Positions 27,161-41,876 of a stretch of 64,000 bases of DNA are shown in pieces; position 1 is the stretch's first letter; the number at the start of each line of letters is the position of its first letter. A program made the position numbers and the translations under genes. The notes under the pieces are model-generated. The model was not told the origin of the DNA and did not search any database. It saw nothing but the letters and a program-made list of their open reading frames with translations. Source of the DNA: Chitinophagales bacterium (GTDB lineage: Bacteria > Bacteroidota > Bacteroidia > Chitinophagales > JADJOU01); NCBI GenBank assembly GCA_030832185.1, contig JAURJQ010000003.1, positions 124,001-188,000 of the forward strand, given 5' to 3'.

Positions 27161-30100
27161 TTATTGTAATAAAACTAGTTTTTCGTATTTACTGGCAGTT
27201 TCTCCTTTTGTATCACGTATGGTTAAGGTATATACATACACCCCTTTACCTAATTTATCGCCAAAATCATCCAATCCATTCCACTGAATTTGGTCTTTTA
27301 CTCTAAATCCTTCGGTACTTAATTTTTGATGAATACGCTTAACTACTCTACCTGTAATTGTCATGATATTAATAGATATATCCAGAATCTCATTAGGTCT
27401 ATTATGCTCAAATTCAAACCGCGTATTGGTGGTGAATGGATTCGGATAATTCAGTAAATGAAAAAGCGCTATTTTTTCTGATGAGGCTACTATAAATTCA
27501 GTGTATCCTTCGCCAGGATTATTATAAACATCCCATGCTTTGACCTTTAGGGTATGTCGTCCATCTTTTAGCTTATAGTAAGGATAATTTATTTGCCCAT
27601 TCATAAAATCTCCTTGATTCGTTCTGTAATAGCTATTTAAGTTTATTGGTAATCTTAGGTTATCGTCCAATATGGCTGTAATATCATGACCAATGCCTGC
27701 TCCAGTCGTATTAATCCCACTTGAGTCAAATAGTTTGACCAAAAGAATAGGATCTGAATTGGTTAATCCCCCAAATGCAAATTTCTCATCATTCATAAAT
27801 AGTTGAACTTTGGGTGGTTGATTATCTGCCGCTGCATTTAGATTAGCGCCTCCTATCCATACGTTGGTATCCATACCAGCGGCATCTCTATAGGGCTTTT
27901 GATTTACATCTGCTGCATAGTATGAGATTTTTCCACGCCCCATGGCATAGTTTATATCCTTAGGTACGATAAATTCGATAGTGAATTTCCCATCTTTAAC
28001 CAAAGTACTTCCGCGAAACAATCTACTTTGCTGAGTTTTAAAGGTGTCACCGGGTATTTTTGGTTCTTTTGTGTCGTTATAGTTCAATTTATTTTGACTA
28101 GGTTTATCTAACACCGTGATTTGACAAAAACCATTGAAATCAGCCATTAGATTATTAGTTAAATCTCTTACCTCTCCTTTAATTGTGACTTTGCTCAGAG
28201 ATTTTAGGGTGTCGTCTGTTCCATTAGAAATAGAGGTGGTTATAACATTGTACTTTGGTAGATTTATTTCTAAGGCAGGATCACCTATTAAAACTACTTT
28301 CTGAGAGTTGCTATTGATGACACTTTTGGTAGCTCTGGCTATTTGCCCTAGAGTCGTATTGGTTCTATTGAAAAAGCTGGCAAAAAAATCATTCATAAAT
28401 GGGCCTTGATCTGAGATATAAACCTCTCTACAGGTAGTGAGTAGACCAATAGCTCCTCCATCTTTTTGCAGAAAATATCTTTCTCCCGCTGATTTATTGC
28501 TGGCATTAGGTTTGTCATAGGGAGCAAAACCGCAGGTAGCCGTAGTCACAAAAGGTAATGAGTAAATGTTTTTATAGATAGGTAAATCATTGGAAGATAG
28601 GATGCGTTCTTGAGACCAGTTGGACTCCCCTCCATGTCCTACATAGGTCATAAGAATATTACCAAAGGTAAAATTATCTTTTACTAATTTCTCTACGTCT
28701 TCATAACGCTGACCTCCGGAGAATTGTTGCTGAAAAAAGGCGTCGAGATAGACCTTGTTTTGGAGGGTTTTTACATTATCTGCAATAAGTTTTTTACTCA
28801 CCGTTTCATTTTGGCTATAAAAGTCTGCATCAGACTGTGTATCATAATCATCTGCCACCAGTGTAGTCTGATTTCGCCAATCGCCATAGGATTCTTTCGC
28901 TTTATATTTCTTTATTTTATTTACTACATCTCTAGCTTCTTCTATACTAGACACGGGTAGTCTACCTATGCCATAAGCCATGGTCTTTATCGCATCGTTT
29001 AGATTAGTATCGGCTAGAATATCGAGTCCATAAATATCATCTGTAGGAAATGATTGAGAGAAATCACTCGAAAATAAGGTTTCATAAGTAGGAACGTAAT
29101 CTTCACAGGTGTTCGAAGTTTTATTGACCCTTTTATAGTCTACGCAGGGCTTTCCAAATAGAGTCACTGTAGAAAGTTTTTCCGGGGCAGAGAGACCTTT
29201 TACAGCTATTTCATTTATAAATCGGCGGATAGCAGTCACGTCTTTATTTCCCGAGCTATACTCATTATATATAGTCTCTACATCTACTACATGTGTCACT
29301 ATGCCTCTCTCTTCTTTATGAAATTCACCAAGCTCCTTAGCCTGATTTAACCAGTTTTTATGCGAAATAATTACATTATGGGCAGCACTTAGATTTTTCA
29401 AGTCTTGATTGTCTATTTTTCCTACAGCGATAGGTGTAAAAGCTTTAATATCCTCAAAGACGACAAACTCGCTGGTAGCAGAGGCATTGCTGAAAACGTG
29501 ATTTTTATTTGAGAGGGATTTATAGGCACCAATAGTGGTCACATCCCATAGTTTAGCATTTTGTGCTCCACTGAGATTGAATTGAATATTATTGCCACTT
29601 CCAGCCTCATCTTTAAATCTAAATGTATACTGATCCCCACTGTAAGTCAAAGGCGCTTTGGCATTGACGGTGATATAATCTAGATAGAAATTCTCATTGA
29701 TAGCCCCATTAATACTAAAGCTAATTTTTGCATTTGCCCCAGGGCAGAGCATCTGAAAGGTATCTATTTGTATCTTATCCGAAGCGCTCAGTAGCAGGGA
29801 TTTTACAAAATTACCATTGACATTTATGGAAAGGTTTACTCCTACTAATCTGGTAAGATAGCTATAGGTGATTGTCATTTTTTCTCCATTCGTACAGCTA
29901 CTAATTGGTAGATCTGTATTGATAGTTTTTACTGTGTTATTAATGGTATATGCATACCATATTCTTCCAGAAAGATTGGGATTGAAGGAATCTATATCTT
30001 GAATGCCAAGGTAGTCATAGCTTGAATAAGTGCGCACGGGCGAACCACTGGGGCCTGCTGCTATCATTTTTTTATTGCTGCCTTCTGTAGTGGTTAGAAA

Positions 30101-30542
30101 AAAATGCTGCACAGAAGTATAATAGGCGGACGTATGTTTGAACCAACCATCTTGTTTGTCGAGAAATTTACCGAAAGGACCATCTGCATAGAATAAAATA
30201 TAATCTTCTTTATCTATCTGATTATTTCCATTGACATCGACTATTTCGATGTTATTTTCTTTTACTTGATTCACATTCGCTACATAATATTCTGGCAGTG
30301 GGCCACCACCATAACCGAATATTCCTAGATTAGATGTTTTTAAGTCATCTGTCTTAATCTTGAGCTCATTGACCATGAAATTATAATCTAATTTGTATAC
30401 CCCAGGTCTATTTATACTAAATTTGTACCAATTGCCTTGTTTAAAAATAGAATTGGCCTTCAGTTGAAAATTGAATATAAAAATAAAACTGAATACTAAA
30501 AGCACCAGTCTATGCGTTAGTAAGACATGATTATATTTCATA
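27161..30542 (-). CDS. porU: T9SS sortase-like peptidase PorU
   Basis: PorU is a gingipain-family (C25) cysteine peptidase of about 1,126 residues. It removes the C-terminal sorting domain of T9SS cargo at the cell surface and links the cargo to a glycolipid anchor. A signal peptide occupies the first 30 residues. The catalytic His is in YVGHGGESNW (about 633) and the Cys in VTTATCGFAPYD (about 669), the usual spacing. The C-terminal NYPNPFTTNTRFEFEH to GVYVYTLTIRD stretch is an uncleaved sorting-type domain, as in known PorU. I prefer ATG 30542 to an upstream in-frame TTG. It is divergent from the PorP-like gene. Confidence 0.94.
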
Positions 30543-30640
30543 TTGGATTTCAAATATAGGTAGAATAACTTATATTATTAATTTTGTATTTTTAAATTTG
30601 ATCAGGGTAGTAAATCTTAAGTAATAACAACGATAAAGGA

Positions 30641-31642
30641 TTGAAAAAATTTCATATAATGTTTATTGTTTTAATGCAGCTTGCGAATAGTTGGGCTCAG
30701 GATATTCATTTCTCCCAGTTAGCTCAAACTCAGTTCTTTTCAAACCCAGCGTTTGCTGGGATACAGTTTGGTCCGCGTGTTTTAGCTCATTATAGAAACG
30801 AATACCCCAATATAGGGAGTCAAATCAATTCTGGATTCAATACTTATTTTATATCCTATGATCAATTCTTGAAAAATTATAATAGTGGTCTAGGTGCGCA
30901 GGTCATAGCGGATAAATTCGGAGATAATCTGTATTCAAGATACTACATCAATATTAACTATGCTTATCAAGCTAAATTTAATGAATACAATGCATTGCGT
31001 TTTGGGTTATCTGCAAATATGATTCACCAGCAATTAGACAAATCTAAATTGGTATTTTTTGATCAGATTGATCCTATTAACGGATTCAATCAGCTAGCCG
31101 CCAGTGAAGAGGATATTTCCAATAGTTTTTCTCAAACGAATTTCAATCTAAATGCCGGTATAGTTTATTTTACGAATTACTTCTATGCGGGTTTGAGTGC
31201 CCGTAATCTGCTGCCGAGAAACAACTTTCAAGGAATAGCATCCAAGCAATTTGAAGATATGACCATTTCAGCCCAGGTTGGAGGTGTGTATTGGTTGAAT
31301 CAAGATAAAAGAATTGCTTTATTTCCCTATTTTTTATTTGACAGGCAATATGATTATCAAAAATATGTAGGTAATATACTTTATCAATATGAAACATTAA
31401 ATCTGGGATTAGGTTTTCGTCATAATGCTCGAGATTTAGAGTCTATAATTTTCTTGGTGGGATTTAATTTTAATAAACTTAGAATAAGCTATTCTTATGA
31501 CTTAAATACAAGCGGAATTAAATCATATACAGGTGGTTCTCATGAGGTTGGTGTGCGAATTTTATTTAAGGGGGAGGATAATTCTCTCTATCCAAATGAG
31601 TACAAAAACATACTTTTTTGTCCAGATTTTATGAAAAACTAA
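30641..31642 (+). CDS. PorP/SprF-family T9SS outer-membrane protein
   Basis: This 333-residue protein starts with a signal peptide ending NSWA-QD, then DIHFSQLAQTQFFSNPAFAG, the PorP/SprF opening motif, and a barrel-like run of strands ending HEVGVRILFKG. PorP-type proteins form outer-membrane barrels. Some bind the PorE/PG1035-type peptidoglycan anchor, and SprF-type members help secrete specific partners such as SprB. Here no large adhesin is directly paired on the same strand, but gldJ follows after 145 bases. The start is TTG 30641, giving MKKFHIMFIV; the first ATG (30659) would strip the basic residues off the signal peptide. Confidence 0.9.
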   Translation: MKKFHIMFIVLMQLANSWAQDIHFSQLAQTQFFSNPAFAGIQFGPRVLAHYRNEYPNIGSQINSGFNTYFISYDQFLKNYNSGLGAQVIADKFGDNLYSRYYININYAYQAKFNEYNALRFGLSANMIHQQLDKSKLVFFDQIDPINGFNQLAASEEDISNSFSQTNFNLNAGIVYFTNYFYAGLSARNLLPRNNFQGIASKQFEDMTISAQVGGVYWLNQDKRIALFPYFLFDRQYDYQKYVGNILYQYETLNLGLGFRHNARDLESIIFLVGFNFNKLRISYSYDLNTSGIKSYTGGSHEVGVRILFKGEDNSLYPNEYKNILFCPDFMKN

Positions 31643-31673
31643 AAAAATGTACAATAAATATTAAAAAATGCGT

Positions 31674-31750
31674 TATCTTAGCAAACTGAATTGGATAATT
31701 TAAAATTAAAAGTTCAAGCTTTGTGAGAATTTATTCCTCAAACCTTGAAA
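31674..31750 (+). promoter_or_regulatory. gldJ leader: -7-like box and imperfect hairpin
   Basis: TATCTTAGC (31674-31682) is one base from the -7 consensus. Downstream, TTCAAGCTTTG (31713-31723) pairs imperfectly with CAAACCTTGAA (31739-31749) in the transcribed leader about 40 bases before the gldJ ATG. There is no T run after the hairpin, so it is not an obvious terminator. Confidence 0.35.
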
Positions 31751-31787
31751 TTAAAAGTATAATAAAATCAAAATAAATAACAAACAC

Positions 31788-33284
31788 ATGAAAAAACTTT
31801 TTGTTTATTTAGTAGTTGGTACCTTTTTCTTTGGAGTATTTACTTCATGCAGCAACAAAGGTAGTTCAAAGGCAGGAAAATCTGAAACTACTGGTTGGAA
31901 CTACAATGATACTAAAAACGGCGGATTTGAAAAAACACAGTACGCAGGTCAAGCAACTTCTCCGGGACTAGTTCTTGTGCCAGGGGGTACTTATCTTATG
32001 GGTCAGAAAGATGAGGATGTCATGCGTGATTGGAATAACGTAGCTAGAAGAATTACGGTGCCTTCTTTCTACATGGATCAGACTGAAGTTTCTAATATGC
32101 AATACCGTGAGTATGTTTGGTGGTTAAGCAGAGTTTTTGGAGAAGGCTTTCCTCAAGTAGTTCAAAGAGCGCTGCCAGATACTCTAGTTTGGAGAGACGA
32201 GTTGGCCTATAATGAGCCCTATGTCGAGTATTATTACAGACATCCATCATTTGATAATTATCCAGTCGTTGGGGTTTCTTGGCTGCAAGCAAATGACTTC
32301 GCTAAGTGGAGAAGTGACAGAGTTAATGAGCAGATATTGGTAACAAAAGGAATTATAAAGTTTGACCCGTCTTCTGATGTGGACGATAACAATTTTAATA
32401 CTCAAGCTTATTTAGTAGGTCAGTATGAGCCTACTGCTGGTGATCAGAAAAAACAAATGAAGGATATTCAAGCAGGAGGAAAATCTACAAGACCTGTGAA
32501 ATTTGAGGATGGTATCTTGCAACCTGACTATAGACTGCCTACTGAGGCCGAATGGGAATATGCTGCGTATTCATTGGTGGGCAATCAGCCATATAAGGAT
32601 GAGGAGCGTATCACCGAGCAAAAAATCTATCCTTGGAATGGACATAGTCTTCGTTATCCAAAAACAGGTAAATTGCAGGGTAAATTCTTAGCTAACTTCA
32701 AAAGAGGTAGAGGAGATAATATGGGTTTAGCTCCTAATCTTAATGATAATGGTGCTATTACTTCAGAGGTAAAGTCTAATTATCCAAATGATTTCGGATT
32801 ATTCAATATGGCTGGGAACGTGAATGAGTGGTGTATGGACGTATATAGACCTATGACTATGACGGATGCTGTAGACTTCAATTCTTTCCGTGGTAATATT
32901 TATAAAACTAAATTAAGAGGCGAAGATGGAGAATTAGCAGAAAAAGATTCATTGGGAAGACTTAATTATAGAGATATAAAGGAAGAGGAAGCGGCTTCTA
33001 GAAGAAATTATAGAAAAGCTGATGTCAGAAACTTTGGAGATCAAGACAAGGAGTCGAATGTAGTCTATGGTTATGGTAAATCATCTCTGGTAAATGACCA
33101 ATCAAGAGTATTTAAGGGAGGTTCTTGGAAAGACCGTGTATATTGGTTATCTCCAGGCACTCGTAGATTCTTCCAAGAATATGAAGCTGCTGATGATATA
33201 GGATTCAGATGTGCTATGAATAGAATGGGTGCTCCGTTAGGAAATAAGTTTCCTTCTGGAAATATTTTCAAAAAGAAAAAATAA
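31788..33284 (+). CDS. gldJ: Gliding motility/T9SS lipoprotein GldJ
   Basis: This 498-residue protein has a lipoprotein signal (hydrophobic 4-17, then FTSCSNKG with the acylated Cys) and a formylglycine-generating-enzyme-like (FGE-sulfatase) domain: LVPGGTYLMGQKDED, MDQTEVSNMQYREYV, DYRLPTEAEWEYAAYS, GNVNEWCMDVYRP and VFKGGSWKDRVYW. GldJ is required for gliding and stabilises GldK and the T9SS in Flavobacterium; it is anchored in the periplasm, probably to the outer membrane. In other genomes it is found close to porU and porV, which matches this neighbourhood. A terminator follows. Confidence 0.9.
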   Translation: MKKLFVYLVVGTFFFGVFTSCSNKGSSKAGKSETTGWNYNDTKNGGFEKTQYAGQATSPGLVLVPGGTYLMGQKDEDVMRDWNNVARRITVPSFYMDQTEVSNMQYREYVWWLSRVFGEGFPQVVQRALPDTLVWRDELAYNEPYVEYYYRHPSFDNYPVVGVSWLQANDFAKWRSDRVNEQILVTKGIIKFDPSSDVDDNNFNTQAYLVGQYEPTAGDQKKQMKDIQAGGKSTRPVKFEDGILQPDYRLPTEAEWEYAAYSLVGNQPYKDEERITEQKIYPWNGHSLRYPKTGKLQGKFLANFKRGRGDNMGLAPNLNDNGAITSEVKSNYPNDFGLFNMAGNVNEWCMDVYRPMTMTDAVDFNSFRGNIYKTKLRGEDGELAEKDSLGRLNYRDIKEEEAASRRNYRKADVRNFGDQDKESNVVYGYGKSSLVNDQSRVFKGGSWKDRVYWLSPGTRRFFQEYEAADDIGFRCAMNRMGAPLGNKFPSGNIFKKKK

Positions 33285-33305
33285 ATTGTCTAAAATCAAT
33301 ATAAA

Positions 33306-33334
33306 AGCTCTCGCTCACAGCGAGGGCTTTTTTT
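33306..33334 (+). terminator. Intrinsic terminator after gldJ
   Basis: AGCTCTCGCT (33306-33315) and AGCGAGGGCT (33319-33328) form a 10-bp stem with one G-U pair and a 3-base loop, followed by seven T. Confidence 0.92.
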
Positions 33335-33347
33335 GTAATATGAAATC

Positions 33348-34637
33348 ATGACTATAGAGAAGCTCTACATTATTTTTTTAGCCCAAGGGCAGAAAATAAC
33401 AACAGATACGCGTAGAATAGAGTCAGGTCAGATTTATTTTGCTCTTAAAGGAGCTAATTTTGATGGAAATAAATTCGCTCAAGAAGCCTTAAATCAAGGC
33501 GCCAAGTATGCAGTGGTAGACGATGAGGCTCTTGCTGGGAATCAAGGCATGATCTCCGTAGAAGATGTTCTGAGTACATTGCAGCAGTTGGCTTTATATC
33601 ACAGACGTAAACTCAATTTACCTGTTATTGCTATTACGGGTAGTAATGGTAAGACGACTTCTAAAGAACTCATTCGAGAGGTACTCTCTACCAAATTTAA
33701 AGTTGCCTGTACAAAAGGTAATTTAAATAATCATATAGGCATTCCATTGACACTTTTGGATATAAAAGCATATGAAGACATCTCTATCGTAGAAATGGGA
33801 GCAAATCATCAAGGAGAAATTGCAGCTTATTGTAAGTATACTGAACCCAATTATGGAGTGATCACCAATATAGGTAAGGCTCACCTTGAAGGGTTTGGTG
33901 GAATAGAGGGCGTTATTAAAGGAAAAACAGAATTATATAGCTATTTAGCTAATAACTTCAATAACAAAATTTTTATAAATGCAGATGATCATATATTGAA
34001 TAAATATACTTCCCATCTAGTACAAATTCTCTACGGCACGAATCCGGTTCTGCCCATTCATGGCAAAATTCTAGATAATAATTCTAATAATCTAACTATA
34101 TCCGTACATGAGGCGGATACTGACTACTTAATTCGCACTCAATTGGCGGGAGATTATAATTTATATAATGTTTTATTAGCGTTCTCTATAGGTCGGTATT
34201 TCGAAATAGATGCCGTGAGGATAGTTCAAGCACTAGAATCCTATCAACCATCAAACAGTCGTTCTCAAATCATCAAGTCTGGAGATACGACTATTATCTT
34301 AGATGCCTATAATGCTAATCCATCAAGTATGGAGGTAGCTTTATTCAATTTAGCGAAATTTGAAGGTAAACGGATAGCTATATTAGGTGCTATGAAGGAA
34401 ATGGGCAATCATAGTGAAGAAGAACATAAAAAGATTTTAGAATTAGCTTTAAATCTGAACATAAATATTATAGTAGCCATAGGTATAGAGTTTTCCGAAG
34501 TAATATCTTCAAAGACTATCCAATATTTTGAAACGACGGAGGAAGCAAAAAATTGGTACAAGCAGCAAAAATTCGGAAGAGATACTATATTAATCAAAGG
34601 TTCGAGAGGTATGGCTTTAGAAAAAATTTTAGAATGA
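33348..34637 (+). CDS. murF: UDP-N-acetylmuramoyl-tripeptide--D-alanyl-D-alanine ligase
   Basis: MurF is a 429-residue cytosolic ATP-dependent ligase that adds D-Ala-D-Ala to the UDP-MurNAc tripeptide in peptidoglycan synthesis. The N-terminal substrate domain includes TDTRRIESGQIYFALKG. The ATP loop is ITGSNGKTT (97-104), followed by TKGNLNNHIGIPLTLL and EMGANHQGEIA. The C-terminal domain has LDAYNANPSSME. The length is a little short but complete. The stop codon overlaps the start of the ECF sigma gene in an ATGA, so the two are translationally coupled. Confidence 0.95.
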   Translation: MTIEKLYIIFLAQGQKITTDTRRIESGQIYFALKGANFDGNKFAQEALNQGAKYAVVDDEALAGNQGMISVEDVLSTLQQLALYHRRKLNLPVIAITGSNGKTTSKELIREVLSTKFKVACTKGNLNNHIGIPLTLLDIKAYEDISIVEMGANHQGEIAAYCKYTEPNYGVITNIGKAHLEGFGGIEGVIKGKTELYSYLANNFNNKIFINADDHILNKYTSHLVQILYGTNPVLPIHGKILDNNSNNLTISVHEADTDYLIRTQLAGDYNLYNVLLAFSIGRYFEIDAVRIVQALESYQPSNSRSQIIKSGDTTIILDAYNANPSSMEVALFNLAKFEGKRIAILGAMKEMGNHSEEEHKKILELALNLNINIIVAIGIEFSEVISSKTIQYFETTEEAKNWYKQQKFGRDTILIKGSRGMALEKILE

Positions 34638-35218
34638 GTCGAATTTGGACAGATAAGGAACTCATTGAGGCTTGTCTCATTGGCAATCCTATAGCACAGA
34701 AAGTACTCTATGATACTTATTCTTCTGTTTTATTTGGTATTTGTATTCGATATAGTAAGAAGGAAGAAGAAGCGCAAGATATACTTCAAGATAGTTTTAT
34801 AAAAATTTTCACTAAGTTAGATACATACCAATATACTGGTTCGTTTGAAGGTTGGCTGAAAAGAATAGTGACCAATACTTCTATAGAATATTATCGAAAA
34901 AAAATCAATACGGAACAGGTAGAAGAAATTGGATTTAATCCATATTTAGCCGTTGACTCTGATAAAGTATTAGAAGTAGAAGAACTGTTAAAAATGATTC
35001 AAGAACTCCCTGAGGGATATCGAATCGTATTTAATATGTACGCAATAGATGGCTATACCCATGGTGAAATTGCTACTAAACTAAATATTTCTGAAGGAAC
35101 TTCTAAATCTCAGCTTTCTAGGGCTAGAGCCTATTTACAGCGTAAATTAAAAGAAAAATTTGAATTGCCTAGAAAATCCGTACAACCATTAGAGCATTTT
35201 TTACGTCTCCTTAGATAG
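34634..35218 (+). CDS. ECF RNA polymerase sigma factor
   Basis: This 194-residue sigma-70 factor has regions 2 and 4 only. Region 2 includes LYDTYSSVLFGICIRY and EEAQDILQDSFIKIFTKL, and region 4 includes LPEGYRIVFNMYAIDGYTHG and ISEGTSKSQLSRAR. It would direct transcription of an envelope-related regulon. The start is ATG 34634 within the murF stop; the frame stays open upstream inside murF, but the sigma fold begins at SRIWTDKELI. The next gene, 5 bases on, encodes a membrane protein that is a good candidate for its regulator. Confidence 0.92.
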   Translation: MSRIWTDKELIEACLIGNPIAQKVLYDTYSSVLFGICIRYSKKEEEAQDILQDSFIKIFTKLDTYQYTGSFEGWLKRIVTNTSIEYYRKKINTEQVEEIGFNPYLAVDSDKVLEVEELLKMIQELPEGYRIVFNMYAIDGYTHGEIATKLNISEGTSKSQLSRARAYLQRKLKEKFELPRKSVQPLEHFLRLLR

Positions 35219-35223
35219 TTACT

Positions 35224-36543
35224 ATGTGGAAAGATAGCGATTTTAGAGAATTATTTCAAAATTATAATCCTGAGCCACCGCAAAAGGTTTGGGAGCAGAT
35301 ATCTTATGCCCTATATAATGAGCGAGCGTCAAAGACTATTTCGCCATTCTTTACCACGACACAGAAAATGACCCTAGCAGCGGCTTCTGTAGCCTCTATA
35401 TTTCTTTCCGCATTTATGTATAGATACATAGATAGAAACATAGAAGTTAAGACTCCTTATGCAGAAGTTAGTTCTAATATAACTAGTCAAGAGGCGCCCC
35501 TTTCCTACAAGACAGAATTAGTAGTTCTTGAGAATAAACTGCAGACCTCGATAAAAACGGCTTCATTTTCTTCTATTACTAAGAAAAAAGTTGCTCCTCA
35601 AATTCAAATTCCAGAAGAGTTCGGTGAATTTAAAAAAGAATTACAAGAATTAGCTGAGCTTGACAGACAAATAGCCATTCTAGATGAGGAAATAACAGCG
35701 GTTAAATCTCGACAAACAGTCAATAATACATGGGAAAGACCTCAATTAGTCCCTATAGAATCAGGTACTGAGAGAAAGACCGCTGCAAACTGGACTAGAT
35801 ATACAGAATTAGAAAAAGAAGCTAAGACAGAAATACCAACCTTAGCATTAAAGCCAGAGGGTGAAACTAAAAAAGAGGAACCCAAATTGTCATTTCTTTA
35901 TAAATTTTACCTTACGCCGTATTTGGGCACAAATTATACACAGGTGACCTATCGAGATAGGCCTACAAATGATTATTTCTCAGAAAAAGCCAATTTCTCT
36001 GGTCGGTTAGGCTATAATGTAGGTATCCAATTAGGATATCAACTAAATAAACGATGGAGTATAGAATCTGGAATAGGTCTTGGGCAGTATATTCTTGGGT
36101 TTAGAGAAGATCATTCTACTTATGAAAGAAATGGTGATATGTATATTGATCAGCTAGATATTCCTTTAATGGCTCGGTACTCTATTCCCTTTGGCTCCAA
36201 GGATCTACCACTAGCTATATCTGTTAAGGGGGGGGTGCTGTATAGCAATGTTATTTTTTATCAGGTAAATTACATAGATAGGCAAAATAGACCTCTTCCT
36301 ATCGGCCCGAAGGAGCAATATTTCAGTGCAGACGTGGATAAGAGGCAATACAATAGTATGCAATTAGGATATACTGCAGGGTTTGATTTTGATGCTTATT
36401 TCTCGAAGAAAATAGCACTTAATCTTTCGGTGCTCAATGCCTTGGTCTCACAGTCTAGCAATTTTCCTCTGTTTAATGCTGAAAAGCAACGACCAATTCA
36501 ATTCTCAACTAGCTTTTCTATAGGTACTAAGATTCGATTTTAG
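35224..36543 (+). CDS. Probable anti-sigma-like protein fused to an outer-membrane barrel
   Basis: This 439-residue protein follows the ECF sigma gene by 5 bases. Residues 1-45 are cytoplasmic-like and contain YNPEPPQKVWEQI, a PPxxVW pattern I associate with Bacteroidota sigma-linked membrane proteins. One hydrophobic helix (about 49-66) follows, with no cleavable signal. A charged linker includes the coiled-coil-like FKKELQELAELDRQIAILDE (about 139-158). From about 220 the sequence is an OmpW/PorT-like beta-barrel (YLTPYLGTNYTQVTY to FSIGTKIRF, ending in Phe). The layout suggests one polypeptide linking the sigma factor in the cytosol to the outer membrane. The regulatory role is inferred, not shown. 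Confidence 0.65.
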   Translation: MWKDSDFRELFQNYNPEPPQKVWEQISYALYNERASKTISPFFTTTQKMTLAAASVASIFLSAFMYRYIDRNIEVKTPYAEVSSNITSQEAPLSYKTELVVLENKLQTSIKTASFSSITKKKVAPQIQIPEEFGEFKKELQELAELDRQIAILDEEITAVKSRQTVNNTWERPQLVPIESGTERKTAANWTRYTELEKEAKTEIPTLALKPEGETKKEEPKLSFLYKFYLTPYLGTNYTQVTYRDRPTNDYFSEKANFSGRLGYNVGIQLGYQLNKRWSIESGIGLGQYILGFREDHSTYERNGDMYIDQLDIPLMARYSIPFGSKDLPLAISVKGGVLYSNVIFYQVNYIDRQNRPLPIGPKEQYFSADVDKRQYNSMQLGYTAGFDFDAYFSKKIALNLSVLNALVSQSSNFPLFNAEKQRPIQFSTSFSIGTKIRF

Positions 36544-38435: not shown

Positions 38436-41400
38436 GTGAGATTAATTGGATTAATAGTTTTGAGTGTATTACTCATCAAGTCTAGTCTAGCTCAGAGTCT
38501 AGCGGATTTAAGCACCCTTCGCCAGAAGTTGGTGTGGCCTGGTGATACGATAGTGCTTGATGCACAGCCAATTATTCCTGGTAGTCTTTATATCTCTATT
38601 AATGGTCAGTATATAGATGCGTCTTTATTCCATCTCAATACCAGAACTAATGTATTCACTTCAACCAAATCCTTTAAGGATTCACTTTTAGTTACTTATC
38701 GAGTTTTTCCTATTCGGCTGACGAGCCTTAGGAGTAGTAAGAAAAAAAATGGTGCGTATTCCTTGAGCTCTTCTTACACTGGGGGAGGTATAACCTACGC
38801 AGGAGAGACAGCTTCTTCGAATGAAATAGAATATAGTGGTTCTTTTGTACGAGGTATTACGGTCGGTAGTCGACAGGATGCAGCTATCAATTCAGGATTT
38901 AATCTAAATATAAATGGCAAGCTAGCCAATGGACTAGAAATAAACGCCACGATGACGGACGCCAATATCCCGATTCAGCCCGAGGGGAACTCAGCCTCTA
39001 TTCAGGAATTTGATCGCATTTTTATCCAATTGAAAAAAGATAGCCATAAAATCATATTAGGAGATTTTGATATGAGCGAAGATCCCTACTATAGGATGAT
39101 GAAATTTGATCGTAAACTCCAAGGTATTCGCTATCAGAGTGCAGTGCCAATCGGTGAGAAGTCTACCTTGCGTTTCGGAGCAGGAGCTGCCCTCACAAGA
39201 GGGACGTTTAGTAGAAACATTTTCGAGGCAGAGGAAAATAATCAAGGCCCTTATAAATTAACAGGAAATAATGGCGAAACGTTTATTATCATAATAGCGG
39301 GGACGGAAAAAGTATTTATCAATGGTATCCCTATGAAACGAGGGATAGAGAATGACTATACGATCAATTATAATGTGGGGGAAGTTGTTTTTACCCCCAA
39401 TCGCTTGATAACAAAAGATCTGAGAATCGTTATAGAGTTTCAGTATTCTGATCGAAGTTATTTTCGATATTCCTTAGAGGCCAATGCGCATTTATCCCAT
39501 CCTAAATACGAACTTTTTTCACAAGTATTTACGGAGAATGATGATAAAAATAACCAAGTTAATCTAGAATTGAAACCAGCTCAGGTACAAAGGCTCAGCC
39601 AAATCGGAAATCAACTAGACTCTGCTATTATATCTGCGGAAACTATTGTGGAAAGTTGGGAAGCTAGTCGTATCACATACACAAAACAAGATACCCTCGT
39701 CCAAGGTCTGACTTATACTATTTATAAATGGGCAGAAACGAATCAACCCAATGTTTACCAAGTTTTATATACTCAAGTGGGCGTGAATAAAGGGAATTAT
39801 GTGCTGAAATCTACAGCAGCCAATGGTTCTGTATATCAATGGGTGGCACCTAAAGATGGAGTATTGCAGGGCAATTATGAACCTACCATAAAAATAACCA
39901 CGCCCAAAACTCATCTGCAATGGACTACTGGAGGATTATACAAATGGAATGACAAACAAATTACTAAAGCTGAAATTTCTTATACCAGTCACGATTTGAA
40001 TACATTTAGTGAACTTCAAAATGGAGAGAATAAAGGCATAGGAATTTTAGTCAATCACAAAGCTATTCATAGACTAGATAGCCTTAAAAGCTTGAGTCTA
40101 GAGATCGAACAGGAATATACAACTTCGCATTTTAGTCCTTTGACTCGCTATAGAAATAATGAATTTCAGCGTGATTGGAATCTAGATTTACCTATCAGAA
40201 ATCAGAGTGAACAATCACTTACAAGTCTAACTCTCGGTTATTCAAGTCGTGATGTTAAATCTAAAATAGGGGGCAATTTTTTTTATTTACCAAATACGTT
40301 TAGTGGCCTGCAATCATATTTTGATGTCAGTTGGAATCCTGGCAGATGGTACTTCTATACCCAGCAGCATTTGATGACCTCTGCCAGATCAGATACGCTC
40401 TCGTTATTTTATAGACCCAAAGCAGGAATACGTTATGATTTGAAGCCAAAGAAATCTCAGTTAGAAGTCGGTATTTTTCATGAGATTAATCGCACCAAAA
40501 AGGAGAATTCCTATCTTCTGAAAAATGGTTTTTTATGGCAAAATTATTTTCTGAATTGGACCAATAAATTTTATGAGATGCATACGCTTAATTTTCAATA
40601 TATCTATCGTACAGAGCAAATCAATGATAGCATTGAGTTCCTTTCCCCAAATGTAAAAGCACATACCTTTTCACTCGATGGTCATAGTGAATTTTCTAAA
40701 TCTCAATCACTAAAATACACCTTAAAATACAGAAATTTTTCGAGTATAAATTTATCTCAAGAAATTCAACATAACTACCTAGGAAGGGTAGATTATAATA
40801 GTCATTATGCCAATGGTTTTATTCGGTTAAATAGTCTATATGAAATAAAAGCGGGCAGAGAGCAGCGCATTCAGCTTACGTATGTAAAAGCCCCTAATGG
40901 TTTTGGAAACTATGCCTGGAGAGATCTGAATAATAATGGTACTTTCGAATTAAACGAAGCCTATGTATCCCCTATTTTGACAGAGAATAATTATATGCGC
41001 TTTTTTATTGCGTTACCTGATTTTATTCCGGCCAATGAAGTAAATTTTTCTCAACAGCTATCCATTCAACCAAAGGCCAAATGGCACGATGCAAAAGATT
41101 GGAAAAAATGGGCAGCCAAGTTTTCCTATCAGCTTCGATTAGATATTAATAAAAAAGTGAGGTCGTCAACTGAAAATCAACTTTTAGATTATGCTAATCC
41201 TCTGGTCGGATTCAAAGATTCGCTCATGATATTCTCACGTAGTTATATTTTCCAACAATTCTCCTATCAAAAAAATGAAGGAAAAATTGGGCTGGATTTA
41301 GAATGGTTGTATAATAATAATAGTAATCTATTGAGCAATGGCATTGAAGGTTATTCACTTCAAAACTATGCTGTCCGTTCTCGTGTGGAGTTATTGTATT

Positions 41401-41876
41401 TTCTTACTTACTACGGAAAAGTCTCCAATGGTATTCGACGAAATACCTCTGAATTTTTTCAGGAAAGAAATTTTGCAATAGTTGAGAATGGAATAGAAAA
41501 TACATTTTCGGTTTATCTGCATAAGAATGCGAAACTAAATTTCAATGGAAACTATGGTTTCAAAAGTACAGGCGATCAATTTAGTGTCTCTCAGCAGGGG
41601 GATATCGAGCTTAAATTTTCGAGAAAGAATGATGGTATCATTGAATCTAGATTTACTCTCTTGCAGCAGACCTACGAAGCAAATATTGCCAATCCACAGA
41701 TAGAACTCGCTATGCTCAATGGCATTCCGCGCGGACTCAACTATATATGGAACTTGACCATAGGCCAGAAACTCACCAAATACCTTCAGCTCAATCTCAT
41801 CTACAACGGACGTAAAAATGAAAATTCCCCCCAGCTGATTCATAGCGGGAATGTGGAGGCAAGAGCGATATTTTAA
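38436..41876 (+). CDS. Large outer-membrane beta-barrel protein, unknown function
   Basis: This 1,146-residue exported protein has a signal peptide ending SSLAQ. Early on it has SFVRGITVGSRQDAAINSGF and TMTDANIPIQPEGNSASIQE followed by FDRIFIQLKKD and ILGDFDMSE. This short motif block resembles one I know from the T9SS protein SprA, but the protein is half its size and I would not call it SprA. The rest is alternating strands with many aromatic residues, ending VEARAIF, a C-terminal Phe typical of outer-membrane barrels. The start is GTG 38436. It lies 131 bases after ccmC. Confidence 0.75.
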   Translation: MRLIGLIVLSVLLIKSSLAQSLADLSTLRQKLVWPGDTIVLDAQPIIPGSLYISINGQYIDASLFHLNTRTNVFTSTKSFKDSLLVTYRVFPIRLTSLRSSKKKNGAYSLSSSYTGGGITYAGETASSNEIEYSGSFVRGITVGSRQDAAINSGFNLNINGKLANGLEINATMTDANIPIQPEGNSASIQEFDRIFIQLKKDSHKIILGDFDMSEDPYYRMMKFDRKLQGIRYQSAVPIGEKSTLRFGAGAALTRGTFSRNIFEAEENNQGPYKLTGNNGETFIIIIAGTEKVFINGIPMKRGIENDYTINYNVGEVVFTPNRLITKDLRIVIEFQYSDRSYFRYSLEANAHLSHPKYELFSQVFTENDDKNNQVNLELKPAQVQRLSQIGNQLDSAIISAETIVESWEASRITYTKQDTLVQGLTYTIYKWAETNQPNVYQVLYTQVGVNKGNYVLKSTAANGSVYQWVAPKDGVLQGNYEPTIKITTPKTHLQWTTGGLYKWNDKQITKAEISYTSHDLNTFSELQNGENKGIGILVNHKAIHRLDSLKSLSLEIEQEYTTSHFSPLTRYRNNEFQRDWNLDLPIRNQSEQSLTSLTLGYSSRDVKSKIGGNFFYLPNTFSGLQSYFDVSWNPGRWYFYTQQHLMTSARSDTLSLFYRPKAGIRYDLKPKKSQLEVGIFHEINRTKKENSYLLKNGFLWQNYFLNWTNKFYEMHTLNFQYIYRTEQINDSIEFLSPNVKAHTFSLDGHSEFSKSQSLKYTLKYRNFSSINLSQEIQHNYLGRVDYNSHYANGFIRLNSLYEIKAGREQRIQLTYVKAPNGFGNYAWRDLNNNGTFELNEAYVSPILTENNYMRFFIALPDFIPANEVNFSQQLSIQPKAKWHDAKDWKKWAAKFSYQLRLDINKKVRSSTENQLLDYANPLVGFKDSLMIFSRSYIFQQFSYQKNEGKIGLDLEWLYNNNSNLLSNGIEGYSLQNYAVRSRVELLYFLTYYGKVSNGIRRNTSEFFQERNFAIVENGIENTFSVYLHKNAKLNFNGNYGFKSTGDQFSVSQQGDIELKFSRKNDGIIESRFTLLQQTYEANIANPQIELAMLNGIPRGLNYIWNLTIGQKLTKYLQLNLIYNGRKNENSPQLIHSGNVEARAIF

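Follow-up and report, generated by a model that had tools for sequence, protein, structure and literature searches.

The locus considered here raises the question of whether one protein chain can connect the outer membrane with a sigma factor. In the window, by which we mean the whole stretch of 64,000 nucleotides of a Chitinophagales bacterium that was analysed, an ECF sigma gene is directly followed by the gene of a long protein, called P0001 here. The first-pass annotation had described this protein as having a short cytoplasmic-like N-terminus, one non-cleaved membrane helix, a coiled-coil-like linker and a C-terminal barrel ending in Phe, and had suggested that it could act as a single chain between the outer membrane and the sigma factor, in place of the usual separate receptor and anti-sigma factor. 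As discussed below, the described features are all confirmed, including the sigma gene and the 5-base gap, and the single-chain suggestion is supported as the best explanation, with the design itself being known already from EcfO-Reo and Das-Dma. The features are collected in Table 1.

Table 1. Features of the sigma/anti-sigma locus, in window coordinates
Feature	Position	Strand	Basis
murF, overlaps sigma start	33348..34637	+	TIGR01143, 372 bits
ECF sigma factor (ECF21-like), 194 aa	34634..35218	+	Sigma70_r2, Sigma70_r4_2 (Pfam)
Single-chain protein P0001, 439 aa, putative anti-sigma	35224..36543	+	Pfam, AlphaFold2, profiles
P0001 N-terminal cytoplasmic domain (predicted), residues 1-44, two short helices, PPxxxW motif, Trp23	35224..35355	+	AlphaFold2, alignments
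P0001 uncleaved inner-membrane helix (predicted), residues 45-71	35356..35436	+	AlphaFold2, hydropathy
P0001 periplasmic tether (predicted), residues 72-223, mostly disordered	35437..35892	+	pLDDT, genus comparison
P0001 long helix within tether, residues 131-162 (coiled-coil-like stretch)	35614..35709	+	AlphaFold2
P0001 C-terminal eight-stranded outer-membrane beta-barrel (predicted), residues 224-439, Phe end	35893..36540	+	PF13568/PF13505 over cut-off

The open reading frame of the sigma factor begins with the ATG at 34634, sharing four nucleotides (ATGA) with the stop of murF, and ends with the TAG at 35216-35218, which is followed after a gap of exactly 5 bases by the frame of P0001, running from the ATG at 35224 to the TAG at 36543 and giving a protein with the C-terminal end ...TKIRF, where Phe is the last residue. 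The sigma protein matches Sigma70_r2 (7e-14) and Sigma70_r4_2 (9e-18) of Pfam, which are the ECF-type regions 2 and 4. The label ECF21-like is based on a comparison with the sigma factor adjoining the Reo-like gene of Phocaeicola vulgatus ATCC 8482, to which the window sigma factor is 40% identical in an alignment of 176 aa. The genome of the window encodes four ECF-like sigma factors, with a close profile match seen only in that beside P0001, and the genome-wide search gave only one P0001-type protein and one such pair.

The structure of P0001 was modelled with AlphaFold2 using 65 distant relatives from genome contigs. The model gives helices at residues 4-12, 22-32, 45-71 (the membrane helix) and 131-162 and barrel strands at 224-438, so that helices, tether and eight-stranded barrel appear in the order that had been described for 35224-36543. 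The barrel is modelled with pLDDT of about 90, and the tether has pLDDT below 50 at residues 73-124 and 164-212, with the helix 131-162 lying in between. The assignment of the barrel is also consistent with the Pfam domain OMP_b-brl_2 (PF13568), found at residues 230-406 with a score of 53.9 bits (cut-off 27), and with the fold comparison, in which the top PDB match of the barrel is OprF (4rlc, Z 18.2, rmsd 1.8, 131 aligned residues) and the barrels of NspA, OmpA and OmpW come next, near OprF. The PDB search by sequence gave no match with P0001, and the family profile gave there only weak matches to OmpW. The N-terminal domain is covered by no Pfam model; the NCBIfam 'antisigma' model NF052375 weakly matches 4 of 35 relatives (best 6e-7), with the one inspected match reaching 16 bits (cut-off 100). 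Trp23 of this domain is invariant in the 35-member alignment, and across 156 sigma/anti-sigma pairs its column is 99% Trp. Conservation within the genus is highest in the barrel, with 67-93% identity, and next highest in the N-terminal domain and in the helix of the tether; the tether evolves fastest, with 21-24% identity in two more distant relatives of the same genus, while the helix within it keeps 46-81%, above the flanking tether. The predicted layout is thus a cytoplasmic N-terminus, one inner-membrane helix, a periplasmic tether and an outer-membrane barrel.

It is noted that this layout depends on the hydrophobic segment remaining in the inner membrane. If it were instead the signal peptide, placed unusually late, of an ordinary outer-membrane porin, the sigma gene would merely be a chance neighbour. 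That PF13568 barrels are common, and that the window genome has five more of them, is in keeping with such a porin. By contrast, the most hydrophobic 19-mer in the N-terminal part of P0001 lies at residues 51-69, and since about 46 residues, which are conserved, precede it, the stretch is unlike a signal peptide; among 137 relatives the median start of the membrane helix is residue 50. Moreover, the homologous barrels in which the N-terminal domain is missing have no sigma gene beside them and in most cases start with an ordinary signal peptide, and the five other PF13568 barrels of the window genome show neither a sigma gene nor such an N-terminus. With the link to a sigma gene recurring across the phylum, as shown below, we consider the reading of P0001 as a porin with a chance neighbour to be extremely improbable. 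One membrane helix without any sign of a cleavable signal peptide, as had been described at first, thus agrees with the model of P0001, the topology being a predicted one because it is based on the helix position, the hydropathy and the comparison with the barrels having signal peptides.

To see how far the two genes go together, a profile built from 12 homologs was searched against 392 genomes of the phylum Bacteroidota, giving a match in 114, and the loci were picked by the part of the profile that was matched, irrespective of their neighbours, before the surrounding DNA was inspected. An ECF sigma gene lies directly upstream on the same strand in 62 of the 63 loci having the N-terminal domain and in none of the 18 loci having a homologous barrel without this domain (Fisher p 4e-17). 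The single exception, L012, is a split pair, where the anti-sigma gene is alone on one contig and the likely cognate sigma gene of the same genome, L204, is alone on another beside rdgB, at the site that the intact pair occupies in a relative. The reverse search, starting from 80 sigma loci in genomes of named Bacteroidales and Flavobacteriales, found directly downstream an ORF with the N-terminal domain in 75 and a barrel ORF in 3 more. The co-occurrence of the two genes therefore holds in both directions (62/63 domain loci and 78/80 sigma loci), and the layout of the pair is beyond chance because the same order of parts recurs throughout the phylum beside an ECF sigma gene. The first-pass annotation had regarded a barrel homolog regularly found without a sigma gene as an argument against the pairing. 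Such barrels do exist, as the 0/18 indicates, but they have another architecture, lacking the N-terminal domain and mostly carrying signal peptides; the pairing stands for proteins with the domain and does not extend to the barrel as such. From 62/63 against 0/18 it follows that it is the N-terminal domain, rather than the barrel, that tracks the sigma factor.

It is also noted that 13 of the 63 relatives are short (<330 aa), leaving no room for a barrel, so that the module can do without one. The short relatives (L017, L022, L024, L033, L036, L037, L041, L042, L067, L068, L073, L076 and L077), with lengths of 235-268 aa, share with the longer ones the N-terminal domain, the membrane helix and the sigma gene directly upstream. 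The barrel, or sensor, half of the module seems to be exchangeable.

The founding papers in this field are those of Pardue 2024 and Ndamukong 2013. The design of a single chain of this type has been published for EcfO-Reo of Bacteroides fragilis and P. vulgatus and for Das-Dma of Bacteroides thetaiotaomicron (PMC9308784, PMC13114119, PMC13088901). Reo is the name given to the P. vulgatus anti-sigma factor M0N98_03760, which is described as reaching through all five compartments (PMC13114119), and Dma of B. thetaiotaomicron begins with a domain that binds the sigma factor, followed by a membrane helix, a long tether that is disordered and the barrel at the C-terminus, with the dma genes adjoining genes of ECF21 sigma factors (PMC13088901). 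The likeness of P0001 to the P. vulgatus ATCC 8482 protein (locus L125) is barely detectable pairwise, the best E-value being 0.009, and the link between the two therefore rests on profiles and intermediates. An HMM iterated from the N-terminal domain of the window family matches the P. vulgatus protein with 8e-13, and hhalign, comparing separately built profiles of the window family and of the Bacteroides relatives, aligns columns 5-72 with an E-value of 3.2e-5 and a probability of 73%. The P. vulgatus pair adjoins a divergent nigD gene (NigD_C 1e-31), which is as expected for the published EcfO regulon, where three nigD paralogs are among the targets (PMC13114119); the identification of L125 with the published M0N98_03760 rests on the species, the architecture and this nigD neighbour. 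In the Bacteroidaceae a match to the family profile is present in 59 of 61 genomes, with some of the matches being barrel-only; some Bacteroidaceae proteins are sigma-barrel fusions of the Dma3 kind. The window pair is thus a member of the known Dma/Reo family, found in a new lineage and a new gene context.

On this basis we propose a model of how the pair works. In the model, P0001 would stay anchored in the inner membrane through the helix 45-71, where its 44-residue cytoplasmic end with PPxxxW would keep the adjacent ECF sigma factor off. The tether of about 150 residues would cross the periplasm, and the eight-stranded C-terminal barrel would be placed in the outer membrane as the sensor. 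A trigger at the outer membrane, which may be a ligand, damage or failed assembly of the barrel, would send its signal through this single chain, with proteolysis or a pull on the tether as the probable means, so that the sigma factor is freed. For P0001 we infer the topology in the cell, the direct binding of the sigma factor, the signal and the step of release; that the window pair is a sigma/anti-sigma pair of the Das-Dma or EcfO-Reo kind, with P0001 working as modelled, we regard as very probable.

One could also imagine that the N-terminal end of P0001 is a positive co-factor or a localiser of the sigma factor rather than its inhibitor. The genetics of the relatives makes this very unlikely, the loss of the homologous protein turning the regulon on in P. 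vulgatus and B. thetaiotaomicron. In P. vulgatus, a transposon insertion in the anti-sigma gene has this effect, as does the sigma factor supplied alone (PMC9308784), and in B. thetaiotaomicron the phenotype of the dma2 deletion needs das2 (PMC13088901), the activation of the regulon on insertion in or removal of the anti-sigma factor being dependent on the sigma factor in these relatives (PMC9308784, PMC13088901). The contact between the sigma factor and the N-terminal domain was also considered computationally. In some Bacteroides relatives the stop codon of the sigma gene is in frame with the anti-sigma gene, and the chain obtained by reading through this stop was modelled by AlphaFold2 with nine alignment rows; for the chain of sigma factor plus N-terminal domain of such a relative the model has good sigma domains, no usable interface, a pTM of 0.37 and a pLDDT of about 50 in the N-terminal domain. 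In a mean-field coevolution analysis of 156 pairs, 54% of the top 100 couplings fall in the N-terminal domain against 47% expected from the number of columns. Since the membrane helix is also above the permutations, with the domain barely higher than the helix, shared ancestry dominates this coevolution signal.

Another possibility concerns what the module senses, namely that P0001, instead of being a receptor for a ligand, is a sentinel of outer-membrane protein assembly: the BAM machinery must fold the barrel, and on failure the chain would be cut and the sigma factor released. In accord with such a sentinel, the genes with the strongest induction in P. vulgatus under the toxin BcpT and under bacteroidetocin A, which is a BamA inhibitor, include the homologous pair (PMC13114119, PMC9308784), and within the genus of the window it is the barrel that is conserved most, the tether being free to change. 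On the other hand, Dma2 has been proposed to sense a glycan (PMC13088901), and relatives without any barrel exist. We therefore hold the assembly sentinel to be possible but on the doubtful side, and keep the model above, in which the trigger may be of several kinds.

The surroundings of the pair bear on a more specific proposal. The stretch 27161-34637 of the window contains a cluster for type IX secretion, gliding and the cell wall, with porU (on the minus strand), porP/sprF, gldJ and murF. The order porU / porP-gldJ-murF-sigma-dma is kept in all five pair-carrying genomes (5/5) of the window family, which belong to two genera; in a sixth genome of the genus, which is 62% complete, no match was found. 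Downstream of the pair in genomes of the same genus there are ccmB-like and ccmC-like genes. It could be supposed that the pair is fixed in the T9SS/gliding/cell-wall cluster, with its barrel reporting the assembly of the outer membrane or of the secretion machine and the one chain coupling this to transcription, which we consider improbable. A terminator-like hairpin lies 3' of gldJ at 33303-33331 and none was found between the start of the sigma gene and the end of the pair, so that murF, sigma and dma could form one transcript. A scan for sigma-70 promoters gave a count of sites no higher than in shuffled sequence. Also present in the window, at 38436-41876, is a large secreted-looking protein of 1146 aa without NCBIfam match, which is conserved in the genus downstream of the ccmC-like gene.

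A one-chain signal path between the outer membrane and a sigma factor is a recent and little-studied mode, elucidated in a small number of Bacteroides and Phocaeicola from the gut. What is new here is that the module linked to the sigma factor is separated from the barrel on the scale of the whole phylum. This small module, made up of the membrane helix and of the N-terminal domain, in which one Trp is near-invariant, predicts the partner sigma factor almost perfectly throughout the phylum, and it provides clean material for studying how one chain is inserted into two membranes and how it releases a sigma factor. Earlier work found a class I anti-sigma domain close to only 6% of the ECF sigma factors of Bacteroidetes (PMC7406223), and the N-terminal module may fill part of the gap left by that figure.

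Finally, we compare the window pair with the known systems. In FecA-FecR-FecI cell-surface signalling, an event at the outer membrane is passed to an inner-membrane anti-sigma factor and on to an ECF sigma factor (PMC9249621), which is alike in outline to the model here. The difference is that two proteins, a TonB-dependent transducer and a FecR-like anti-sigma factor, are used there, whereas one chain is present in the window. FecR-type signalling itself was considered and rejected, with P0001 having no Pfam FecR or TonB-receptor match and the neighbours being murF and the ccmB/ccmC-like genes.

With EcfO-Reo the window pair shares the ECF sigma gene with a long anti-sigma gene directly downstream, the order of cytoplasmic end, inner-membrane helix, periplasmic span and C-terminal outer-membrane barrel, and the homology of both the N-terminal domain and the sigma factor. 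The differences are that the window pair has no nigD neighbour and overlaps murF instead, and that its tether holds a conserved long helix. With Dma1/Dma2 and Das1/Das2, compared by their published description, it shares the order of domains and the adjacent sigma gene, ECF21 there and ECF21-like in the window, but the window genome has one such pair, and a role in vesicle production or in the control of PULs is not carried over to it. The same idea is also seen in the Dma3-type fusions, where the sigma factor is fused to the barrel protein. In the Bacteroidaceae we observed seven Dma3-like chains (L115-L119, L121 and L122) of about 565-595 aa, L116 being cut by the contig end, with an N-terminal ECF sigma domain and a C-terminal barrel of PF13568 type. 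At nine Bacteroides-type loci (L127, L136, L137, L141, L142, L144, L147, L149 and L150) the anti-sigma ORF is in frame with the sigma stop and is thus one stop codon away from a Dma3-type fusion. In the window, by contrast, the sigma factor is a separate protein.
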